A stretch of DNA of 64,000 nt from Bolinopsis microptera (taxonomy: Eukaryota > Ctenophora > Tentaculata > Lobata > Bolinopsidae), in contig NC_087081.1 in assembly GCF_026151205.1 (NCBI RefSeq), positions 1,113,386 to 1,177,385 on the forward strand. The letters are read 5' to 3'. The position numbers and the translations under genes are program-made. Shown here piece after piece: positions 52,207-57,381 of this stretch. A model generated the notes under the pieces. The model did not search any database. It saw nothing but the letters and a program-made list of their open reading frames with translations, and had not been told where the DNA came from. Numbering within the stretch: the first letter of the stretch is position 1; every line of letters begins with the position of its first letter.

Positions 52207-52466
52207 TTCTTGGTCACTTAATCCTTGGTCACTTAATCCTTGGTCACTTAATCCTTGGTCACTTAATCCTTGGTCACTTAATCCTTGGTCACTTAATCCT
52301 TGGTCACTTAATCCTTGGTCACTTAATCCTTGGTCACTTAATCCTTGGTCACTTAATCCTTGGTCACTTAATCCTTGGTCACTTAATCCTTGGTCACTTA
52401 ATCCTTGGTCACTTAATCCTTGGTCACTTAATCCTTGGTCACTTAATCCTTGGTCACTTAATCCTT
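52207..52466. repeat. 15-bp minisatellite, about 17 copies
   Basis: Perfect tandem copies of CACTTAATCCTTGGT. The unit is a multiple of three and stop-free in several frames, so it produces GLSDQ, LNPWS and GHLIL pseudo-proteins. It lies about 55 bp upstream of the start codon of the gene on -, in its presumed 5' region. Confidence 0.97.
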
Positions 52467-53200: not shown

Positions 53201-53544
53201 GGGTTCATTTGCTGTACAATTATTTTATCCGACTTTTTTAAATCGGTACGGGTAGTAACGTAGATTAATCAAGTTTTATAATTACTATTAATTTATCTCC
53301 GATAATTTCCGTTATTGTCGATAACTTCCAAAATCTTATCGGTTATCACCGAAACAGATTATTGCAAACTTAAGAGTGCAATCTATTAAGTTAATTGCTA
53401 AATAAAATGTGTGGCTTGATAATATTACATTTTATTTAGTATTTTGATGATTGAGTCGCTATTAATTGTATCTACAAATTCAATTATTTTTAATTACGCT
53501 TGCTTAAGACGTACAGAAAATTCATACACAAATTTCCATCAGGA

Positions 53545-56500
53545 ATGTCACTCAAAGAAACAGAAATGTTTGAGGGGGTAGATATCAAAGAGGAGATGAC
53601 GGACGCTCACCAAGTTAACACTACTTCAACATGGTCATCATCAGTATGCACTTGTAAATGTGAGAAAGACGACAAAAATAACAATCTGAAAGCTGAGGGC
53701 GTGCTGTATAATCAGTTTGGAGCTGGTTCAGAACACTTCAACCAAGTAGGTGAAGTTGTAAAGATAGAGGATGTGCCGGCTAATCAGTTTGAAGCTGGTT
53801 CAGAACACTTCAACCAAGTAGGTGAAGTTGTAAAGATGGAGGATGTGCCGGCTAATCAGTTTGAAGCTGGTTCAGAACATTTCAACCAAGTAGGTGAAGT
53901 TGTAAAGATGGAGGATGTGCCGGCTAATCAGTTTGAAGCTGGTTCAGAACACTTCAACCAAGTAGGTGAAGTTGTAAAGATAGAGGATGTGCCGGCTAAT
54001 CAGTTTGAAGCTGGTTCAGAACACTTCAACCAAGTAGGTGAAGTTGTAAAGATAGAGGATGTGCCGGCTAATCAGTTTGAAGCTGGTTCAGAACACTTCA
54101 ACCAAGTAGGTGAAGTTGTAAAGATGGAGGATGTGCCGGCTAATCAGTTTGAAGCTGGTTCAGAACACTTCAACCAAGTAGGTGAAGTTGTAAAGATGGA
54201 GGATGTGCCGGCTAATCAGTTTGAAGCTGGTTCAGAACACTTCAACCAAGTAGGTGAAGTTGTAAAGATGGAGGATGTGCCGGCTAATCAGTTTGAAGCT
54301 GGTTCAGAACACTTCAACCAAGTAGGTGAAGTTGTAAAGATGGAGGATGTGCCGGCTAATCAGTTTGAAGCTGGTTCAGAACACTTCAACCAAGTAGGTG
54401 AAGTTGTAAAGATGGAGGATGTGCCGGCTAATCAGTTTGAAGCTGGTTCAGAACACTTCAACCAAGTAGGTGAAGTTGTAAAGATGGAGGATGTGCCGGC
54501 TAATCAGTTTGAAGCTGGTTCAGAAGATTTCAACCAAGTAGGTGAAGTTGTAAAGATGGAGGATGTGCCGGCTAATCAGTTTGAAGCTGGTTCAGAACAC
54601 TTCAACCAAGTAGGTGAAGTTGTAAAGATGGAGGATGTGCCGGCTAATCAGTTTGAAGCTGGTTCAGAACACTTCAAGCAAGTAGGTGAAGTTATAAAGA
54701 TGGAGGATGTGCCGGCTAATCAGTTTGAAGCTGGTTCAGAAGATTTCAACCAAGTAGGTGAAGTTATAAAGATGGAGGATGTGCCGGCTAATCAGTTTGA
54801 AGCTGGTTCAGAACACTTCAACCAAGTAGGTGAAGTTATAAAGATGGAGGATGTGCCGGCTAATCAGTTTGAAGCTGGTTCAGAACACTTCAAGCAAGTA
54901 GGTGAAGTTATAAAGATGGAGGATGTGCCGGCTAATCAGTTTGAAGCTGGTTCAGAAGATTTCAACCAAGTAGGTGAAGTTATAAAGATGGAGGATGTGC
55001 CGGCTAATCAGTTTGAAGCTGGTTCAGAACACTTCAACCAAGTAGGTGAAGTTATAAAGATGGAGGATGTGCCGGCTAATCAGTTTGAAGCTGGTTCAGA
55101 ACACTTCAACCAAGTAGGTGAAGTTGTAAAGATGGAGGATGTGCCGGCTAATCAGTTTGGAGCTGGTTCAGAACAATTCAATCAAGTAGGTGAAGTTGTA
55201 AAGATGGAGGAAGTGCCGGCTAATCAGTTTGGAGCTGGTTCAGAACACTTCAACCAAGTAGGTGAAGTTGTAAAGATGGAGGAAGTTCCGGCTAATCAGT
55301 TTGGAGCTGGTTCAGAACACTTCAACCAAGTAGGTGAAGTTGTAAAGATGGAGGATGTGCCGGCTAATCAGTTTGAAGCTGGTTCAGAACACTTCAACCA
55401 AGTAGGTGAAGTTATAAAGATGGAGGATGTGCCGGCTAATCAGTTTGAAGCTGGTTCAGAACACTTCAACCAAGTAGGTGAAGTTGTAAAGATGGAGGAA
55501 GTGCCGGCTAATCAGTTTGGAGCTGGTTCAGAACACTTCAACCAAGTAGGTGAAGTTGTAAAGATGGAGGAAGTGCCGGCTAATCAGTTTGGAGCTGGTT
55601 CAGAACACTTCAACCAAGTAGGTGAAATGGTAAAGATGGAGGATGTGCCGGCTAATCAGTTTGAAGCTGGTTCAGAACATTTCAACCAAGTAGGTGAAGT
55701 TATAAAGAAAGAGGATGTGCCGGCTAATCAGTTTGAAGCTGGTTCAGAAGATTTCAACCAAGTAGGTGAAGTTATAAAGAAAGAGGATGTGCCGGCTAAT
55801 CAGTTTGAAGCTGGTTCAGAAGATTTCAATCAAGTAGGTGAAATGGTAAAGATGGAGGATGACAAGGTTTCCTGTGGTGTCCTGGCTAAAGCTGAACCTT
55901 TGGACTATAAAGAACTTCAGTGTGATAATTGTAATCTCCCATTGTCACCATCGAAGGTTAAGCCTGCGAAAGGAAAGTCCTCTTCTGTTCCTATACCTAC
56001 CGAGTCTGATTGTGGTAGTCAGGGTGAAACTCTATCTGGTGGAGAAACCACTCCGTCTGGGACTGGACACAAGTTAAAAAAACACTTACAGACACACACA
56101 GGAGAGAAACCTTATTCTTGCAGTTTATATGATTATAGATCGAATCACTCGAGCAATCTTGCTGCTCACAAACGAACACACACCGGAGAGAAACCTTATT
56201 CTTGCAGTTTGTGTGATTTTAAATCGAATCAATCGAGCATTTTTGCTAGACACAAACGAACACACACCGGAGAGAGACCTTATTCTTGCAGTTTGTGTGA
56301 TTATAAATCGAATCAATCGAGCAATCTTGCTCGACACAAACGAACACACACCGGAGAGAAACCTTATTCTTGCAGTTTGTGTGATTACAAATCGAACCAT
56401 TCGAGCCATCTAGCTATTCACAGAAGAACACACACCGGAGAGAAACCTTATTCTTGCAGTTTGTGTGATTTTAAATCGTATTACTCGAGCAGTCTTGATA

Positions 56501-57381
56501 ATCACAAACGAACACACACCGGAGAGAAACCTTATTCTTGCGGTTTGTGTGATTTTAAATCGAATCAATCGAGTAATCTTGCTCAACACAAACGAACACA
56601 CACCGGAGAGAAACCGTATTCTTGTAGTTTGTGTGATTTTAAATCGAATCACTCGAACCATCTTGCTACTCACAAACGAACACACACCGGAGAGAAACCG
56701 TATTCTTGTAGTTTCTGTGATTTTAAATCGAATCACTCGAGTAGTCTTGCTATTCACAAACGAACACACACCGGAGAGAAACCTTATTCTTGCAGTTTGT
56801 GTGATTATAAATCGAATCAATCGAGCGTTCTTGCTCAGCACAAACGGACACACACCGGAGAGAAACCTTATTCTTGCGGTTTGTGTGATTATAAATCGAG
56901 TCGATCGAGTGATCTTGCTATTCACAAACGAACACACACTGGAGAGAAACCTTATTCTTGTAGTTTGTGTGATTATAAATCGAATCGATCGAGCATTCTT
57001 GCTCAACACAAACAGACACATACCGGAGAGAAACCTTATTCTTGCGGTTTGTGTGATTATAAATCGAGTCGATCGAGTGATCTTACTATTCACAAACGGA
57101 AACATACAGGAGAGAAACGTTATTCTTGCAGTTTGTGTGATTTTAAATCGAATTACTCGGGCAATCTTACTATTCACAAACGAACACACACAGGAGAGAA
57201 ACTTTACCACTGTACTGTCTGTGACATTAAAGTGAAGACGGCTGGAACTTTGAAAAGGCATATGTTGATCCATACTAGACAGTTTGCCTGCGAATATTGT
57301 GACTGTAATCCTAAATCTAAGGACGCTTTGTTGAAACACATAAGATCTAGGCATGTGCAACCTCAGTTAAACAAAAGTTAA
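53545..57381 (+). CDS. C2H2 zinc-finger protein with 30 SUMO-site repeats
   Basis: A single-exon frame of 1278 residues from ATG 53545 (the frame opens upstream without an ATG). Residues 1-55 hold DIKEEM and LKAEG, both fitting the SUMO-acceptor consensus (hydrophobic-Lys-x-Glu). Residues 56-775 are exactly 30 repeats of 24 residues, of the type [20 protein letters not shown] plus DVPA; every unit has one VKME, IKME, VKIE or IKKE. After a linker come fingers from about residue 857 at 28-residue spacing with TGEKPYSC linkers: a half-finger (KKHLQTH), a first finger whose second Cys is Tyr (CSLYDY), then 14 complete fingers, mostly CSLCDYKS type with the aromatic two residues after the second Cys. 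Helix contacts vary ([21 protein letters not shown]). Known family behaviour suggests a nuclear DNA-binding repressor; SUMO function is inferred. ATTAAA at 57423 may be the poly(A) signal. Confidence 0.93.
53710..55869 (+). repeat. 72-bp coding tandem repeat, 30 copies
   Basis: Thirty in-frame 72-bp units lie inside the zinc-finger gene. Units 14-16 (HFK, DFN, HFN variants with IKME) recur as units 17-19, a 216-bp higher-order duplication. Units 21-23 and 26-27 share NQFGAG. Differences between units are few and keep the VKxE core. Confidence 0.98.

Follow-up and report, generated by a model that had tools for sequence, protein, structure and literature searches.

At the locus studied here, a predicted C2H2 zinc-finger protein of the ctenophore Bolinopsis microptera carries 30 tandem copies of a SUMO-acceptor motif, and the question is whether these copies serve SUMO attachment or are the by-product of a coding minisatellite. 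We analyzed a stretch of 64,000 nucleotides (the window), to which all coordinates refer unless a contig or a locus is named. The coding sequence lies on the + strand in a single exon (53545..57381, 1278 residues plus the stop) and comprises a head, the 30-unit array, a linker and the zinc fingers. Its ATG at 53545 agrees with the RefSeq starts of the paralogues P0001 and P0004. Directly 5' of GA-ATG we found a putative 3' splice site, TTTCCATCAG (53533..53542, + strand). Of the 38 frames listed (the window counted in and one gene counted twice), 34 have CAGGAATG at the start codon, putatively a 3' splice site common to the zinc-finger family; a coding exon starting there would imply a non-coding exon upstream.

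The 55-residue head holds two acceptor sites, as the sequence-only reading had claimed: M1, IKEE inside VDIKEEM (53584..53595), and M2, LKAE (53686..53697), both on the + strand. They are followed by the array (53710..55869, + strand), 30 units of 72 bp or 24 residues with one site M3, [V/I]-K-x-E-[D/E], per unit, and by a linker holding a 19-residue family-conserved stretch (55870..56118, + strand). The finger region (56119..57354, + strand) shows the tandem C-x2-C-x12-H-x3-H pattern and TGEKP linkers of the C2H2 class, with 15 C2H2-like fingers by pattern. In the first, the second Cys is replaced by Tyr, hence 14 are intact, the number previously given. Pfam lists 14 families for the window protein at E<=1, and KRAB, SCAN, ZAD and BTB are not among them. 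Matches to Nup35_RRM_2, DUF4926 and PsaE inside the array were taken as repeat artefacts, no stretch passing; an NCBIfam match of the same protein was irrelevant, and a sigma-70 promoter scan was set aside as inapplicable to animal DNA. Neither the window protein nor the 13-unit paralogue described below had a match among predicted proteins, a search in which the repeats may have spoiled the window query. Regarding the surrounding DNA, a perfect 15-bp minisatellite of 17 copies (52209-52466) precedes the gene by about 1.1 kb, and a recurring kind of minisatellite, short 12-22 bp arrays whose cores are CACGTG and/or TGACGTCA-like, is scattered through the window (5351, 14904, 16146, 38829, 51624 and 62805).

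The claim of 30 tandem SUMO-acceptor motifs held in full: all 30 units are in frame, at a spacing of exactly 24 codons. The core and its next residue read VKMED in 14 units, IKMED in 7, VKMEE in 4, VKIED in 3 and IKKED in 2. The SUMO-substrate consensus psi-K-x-E is present at 32 sites of the protein, 30 of them inside the array, where 35 lysines face 30 motifs and the net charge is -115. TRF describes a 72-bp repeat of 29.9 copies with 97% matches, one of 61 tandem-repeat rows in the window, and the mean identity among the first 29 units is 0.965. The 30 motifs are copies of a single one and not independent of each other. Its open frame brings no separate evidence, because the 72-bp unit is stop-free. 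Conservation of the Lys and Glu within it also weighs little, since 14 of the 24 codons show no change at all, synonymous ones included, and the chance that both residues fall among these is 0.33. The sequence-only reading had seen selection in the unbroken cores and proposed comparing synonymous with nonsynonymous differences among the units. Minimal changes listed by hand amount to 9-11 nonsynonymous and 3 synonymous, matching the neutral expectation (P=0.57-0.68), and purifying selection was not seen in this comparison. The four hand-listed core changes all preserve psi-K-x-E, with a chance of 0.13, or 0.05 if an acidic residue at +3 is required. As the copies are recent and this ratio is that expected without selection, selection is not deducible from the array alone, and we discarded that argument.

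Judged by the shared tail, LKAE and CDNCNL, the window gene belongs to a zinc-finger family of B. microptera, whose members were found only in this genome and a few further records. In the family, a tail of about 100-160 residues precedes the fingers and bears three SUMO-acceptor consensus sites, M1 (IKEE), M2 (LKAE) and M3 (VKME); a composed 104-residue family-like tail has three psi-K-x-E, against a shuffle mean of 0.28 (P=0.001). Searching the genome (264.65 Mb) with the array unit gave arrays at two other places, C10:7752295 (L009, 13 units) and C10:7856759 (L010, 5 units), besides many places with a single unit (all of these being lower bounds, as only the best candidates were scored). 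The search with the single-copy tail gave 97 matches. Excluding array units, the places number about 50; this includes the three array genes as well as fragments and weak matches, and several of the places contain stops. Seven family genes cluster within 16 kb on C3 and another seven within 12 kb on C6. Two similar family genes, L056 (C5:10842967, + strand) and L057 (C5:10708216, - strand), are oppositely oriented and some 135 kb from each other. Among 212 fingers, entropy was highest at three positions (2.87, 2.83 and 2.40, with 2.21 at a neighbouring position), which we take to be helix positions 3, 6 and -1. The variability of these presumed contact residues, together with the clustering, would fit a transposon-chasing family. 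Another zinc-finger frame (L017:3-746, - strand) has an N-terminus rich in psi-K-x-E (HIKTEVKTEEED...LKSEVKTE).

For the comparison of paralogues we used 39 open frames, two of them added by hand to those that a text pattern had picked out. Frames with start or frame faults were excluded (for example L016:4215-5258, L056:2842-3177, L057:1462-1821 and a DUF3504-joined tail in L059), and L061-L064 are also outside the set. The M3 segment is present once in 36 of the 39, and some members have an insertion after the M2 Glu. The codon analysis covered the 34 members that lack a multi-copy array, including some fragments. Parsimony over 103 codons gave 145 synonymous and 348 nonsynonymous changes (dN/dS about 0.58 in a first, uncorrected alignment of the family tails). 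The acceptor Lys underwent no nonsynonymous change in M1 (kept in 33/33) or M2 (34/34) and one in M3 (33/34); the corresponding numbers for the Glu are 2, 4 and 0. These six codons thus total 7 nonsynonymous changes, where the general mean is 3.4 per codon. In permutation tests, which assume an independence of the counts that gene conversion between paralogues lessens, the six codons gave P=0.0028 against any six codons and 0.013 against the 22 codons with a Lys or Glu majority. The three Lys alone gave 0.0016 against any codon and 0.07 against Lys-majority codons, and the three Glu alone were not special in these 34 members (0.16 among Glu codons, 0.18 against any codon). Taken together, the acceptor Lys and Glu appear to be under moderate constraint in the single-copy paralogues, and it is on these genes that the earlier claim of selection finds moderate support.

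The full psi-K-x-E is kept in 31/33 members at M1 (one frame lacks the start), 29/34 at M2 and 25/34 at M3, the least conserved of the three, and all three sites are complete in 19 of the 33 full frames. The M3 losses consist of psi to Ala in seven related members, psi to Glu in one and Lys to Gln in one. In L060, outside the codon count, the M3 Lys is Thr and M2 reads LKAD. Besides, in six proteins from other records (P0002, P0003, P0005-P0007 and P0010) M1 and M2 are intact in all six and M3 in three, with the M3 Lys replaced by Glu in P0010.

Units of the window and of L009 are 0.970 identical to each other, compared with 0.965 within the window, while the 165-nt heads of these two genes, which are separated by 6.6 Mb, are only 0.861 identical. 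In the head tree, L009 and L010 group with the single-copy L020 (support 0.94), apart from the window gene. Since the units are alike but the heads have diverged and group elsewhere, the array must have been passed or homogenised between paralogues. L009 and L010 have identical 165-nt coding starts with 13 and 5 units, respectively, so copy number changes quickly. The motif is kept in 46 of the 48 units of the three arrays (12/13 in L009 and 4/5 in L010), as in each of these two the last unit is merged with the linker and has lost its motif.

Other segments of the tail have been multiplied as well. In L054 (744-1982) it is M1 that was amplified, as VDIKEE in 15 copies whose three kinds of difference are all synonymous (chance 0.01); no other place in the genome resembles this array at above 53% identity. 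L060 (987-1898) has a 12-residue M1 unit in three copies, with M2 and M3 no longer matching the consensus, which could be a case of compensation. The window gene, L054 and L060 fall in separate parts of the tree. L015 and L016 have in common an 11-residue duplication that creates an extra LKCE, and the two-copy duplications of L014 and L059 are free of the motif. A 14-residue motif-free unit, PPPIRETVPSEP-type, is present four times in the tail at C1:15151036. This tail, which also holds IKEE and VKTE ahead of that unit, is joined to a DUF3504 domain (Pfam E=1.3e-13) in a 673-residue frame without zinc fingers (L059:6163-8181, C1:15149662-15151680), and the fusion could represent the tail on another protein or read-through of a splice site. 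The list of duplications takes the best one per member and covers 10 of the 39 members, which come to seven by shared origin and to six after dropping L058, a 7-residue, motif-free, apparently frameshifted stretch. Three of the four segments with at least three copies hold psi-K-x-E (P=0.03 for random placement, in a post hoc test). For all duplications the count is 4/6 (P=0.047), or P=0.06 with L058 added. According to these results, which are post hoc and concern few events, a recurrent amplification of psi-K-x-E segments is suggested.

The explanation that we favor, tentatively and at somewhat below an even chance, is a SUMO-acceptor-rich recruiter tail whose number of sites varies in the manner of a minisatellite, in a fast-evolving and possibly transposon-targeting zinc-finger family. 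Its main rival, which we hold to be possible, is that a stop-free 72-bp unit simply grew by unequal crossing-over in a tolerant tail; the motif would have been inherited from the founding segment and its number would be functionless. Much of what the array displays is as a neutral coding minisatellite would have it, in a window rich in tandem repeats: units 97% alike with a neutral ratio of changes, and a count that drifts fast, from 13 to 5 behind identical 165-nt starts. A random 24-residue segment of the tail would hold a motif with a chance of 0.44, and motif-free segments have been duplicated too (L014 and L059 twofold, C1:15151036 fourfold). What speaks for the recruiter tail against it is that a different motif, VDIKEE, was amplified separately with synonymous differences only, and that the motif is present in three of the four segments that reached three copies or more.

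One could also propose, though we regard it as unlikely, that the tail acts without SUMO attachment: its repeats might bind SUMO (SIM-like, E-V-V-K-[I/M]-E-D), adopt an ordered structure or serve as an acidic activation domain. A self-composed SIM-like pattern matches the array at 26 places, the strongly negative charge would suit an activation domain, and AlphaFold2 run on the single sequence drew long strands through the units with a pLDDT of 71-86. We do not trust this model, the best of five (mean pLDDT 33-68), made without an alignment on near-exact repeats. Besides, the M3 Lys, needless for a SIM, is retained in all but one of the 34 single-copy paralogues, M1 and M2 are not SIM-like, and the aromatic residues vary in the family (F in 20/34 at column 58 and in 17/34 at column 65). 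A model of the single-copy P0004 showed the tail as coil, with block pLDDT values of about 25-34, and gives no verdict on disorder, because its fingers also failed to fold. SUMO-targeted ubiquitin ligases recognise SUMO in clusters, and through them the array might act as a degradation signal that keeps the protein scarce or transient. This is very improbable in our judgement: it draws on general knowledge of these ligases and on nothing specific to the array, and offers no obvious reason for amplification in a DNA-binding family.

Under the recruiter explanation, M1-M3 would be working parts of the tail, and the M3-bearing 24-residue segment, a coding minisatellite of 72 bp, would have reached 30 copies through unequal exchange, yielding a long acidic tail with 32 potential acceptor lysines. 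The fingers would bind particular DNA, perhaps transposons, and Ubc9/PIAS would attach SUMO to several of the lysines. The clustered SUMO would then recruit SIM-bearing co-repressors of the SETDB1/ATF7IP or NuRD type and the locus would be silenced, with higher avidity at larger numbers of sites. The array itself, the family, the sharing of units between paralogues, the separate amplification of M1 and the moderate Lys-plus-Glu constraint are established here; SUMOylation, multivalency, silencing and targets are what these sequences lead us to infer. The genome has one match to the UAE_UbL domain (E=3.1e-25), which we take to be the mark of UBA2, the SUMO E1 subunit (SUMO-activating enzyme). 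The Rad60-SLD model (PF11976) has 20 matches in the genome, and we rejected it as proof of SUMO, since they are mostly tandem ubiquitin-like repeats and probably polyubiquitin; one such tandem, likely polyubiquitin, lies at G000:C1:3812238-3816261.

KRAB zinc-finger proteins form large clustered families in tetrapods. In the KRAB-ZNF/TRIM28 system, C2H2 proteins target particular DNA for silencing by SETDB1, which depends on SUMO (PMC7915335). The B. microptera family is alike in its C2H2 proteins and in the proposed SUMO/SETDB1 silencing, but Pfam shows no KRAB domain in the Bolinopsis protein, and the SUMO-type sites are in the zinc-finger protein, not in a co-repressor. FiNZ proteins may contain I-K-E-E-type motifs, and we know of no array in them. 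These cyprinid fish proteins have a short Glu-rich N-terminal segment of 28 residues before the fingers, have undergone a lineage-specific expansion and repress young transposons (PMC10547256). The word SUMO is absent from the main text of that paper, and no paper treating FiNZ and SUMO together was found in the literature searched. The likeness to our family lies in the Glu-rich segment ahead of the fingers and in the lineage-specific expansion, and the difference in the length of the segment. SUMO motifs of transcription factors, also known as synergy-control motifs, combine an N-terminal SUMO site with SUMO-dependent repression. Bonus, a TIF1 protein of Drosophila, has a single N-terminal SUMO site, represses in a SUMO-dependent manner and binds SetDB1 (PMC10672805), whereas the Bolinopsis protein has 32 potential sites, 30 in tandem. 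No report of such SUMO-site arrays was found in the literature searched, which covered few subscription papers and bioRxiv preprints.

A broader reading, which we consider doubtful, is that this ctenophore zinc-finger family may have its own silencing module, with the SUMO sites in the DNA-binding protein and no KRAB-like adaptor, and that the number set by minisatellites (1-30 for M3, 15 for M1) may act as a dial by which SUMO valency, and with it the strength of silencing, can evolve. The finding bears on how animals without KRAB/TRIM28 couple sequence-specific zinc fingers to silencing. The natural range of 1-30 copies of a SUMO-type site would make SUMO multivalency testable as a quantity, and the near-identical backbones of L009 and L010, with 12 and 4 motifs in their 13 and 5 units, offer a natural comparison of valency. 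Finally, that two different SUMO-type sites have been multiplied separately hints at a new route to gene silencers.
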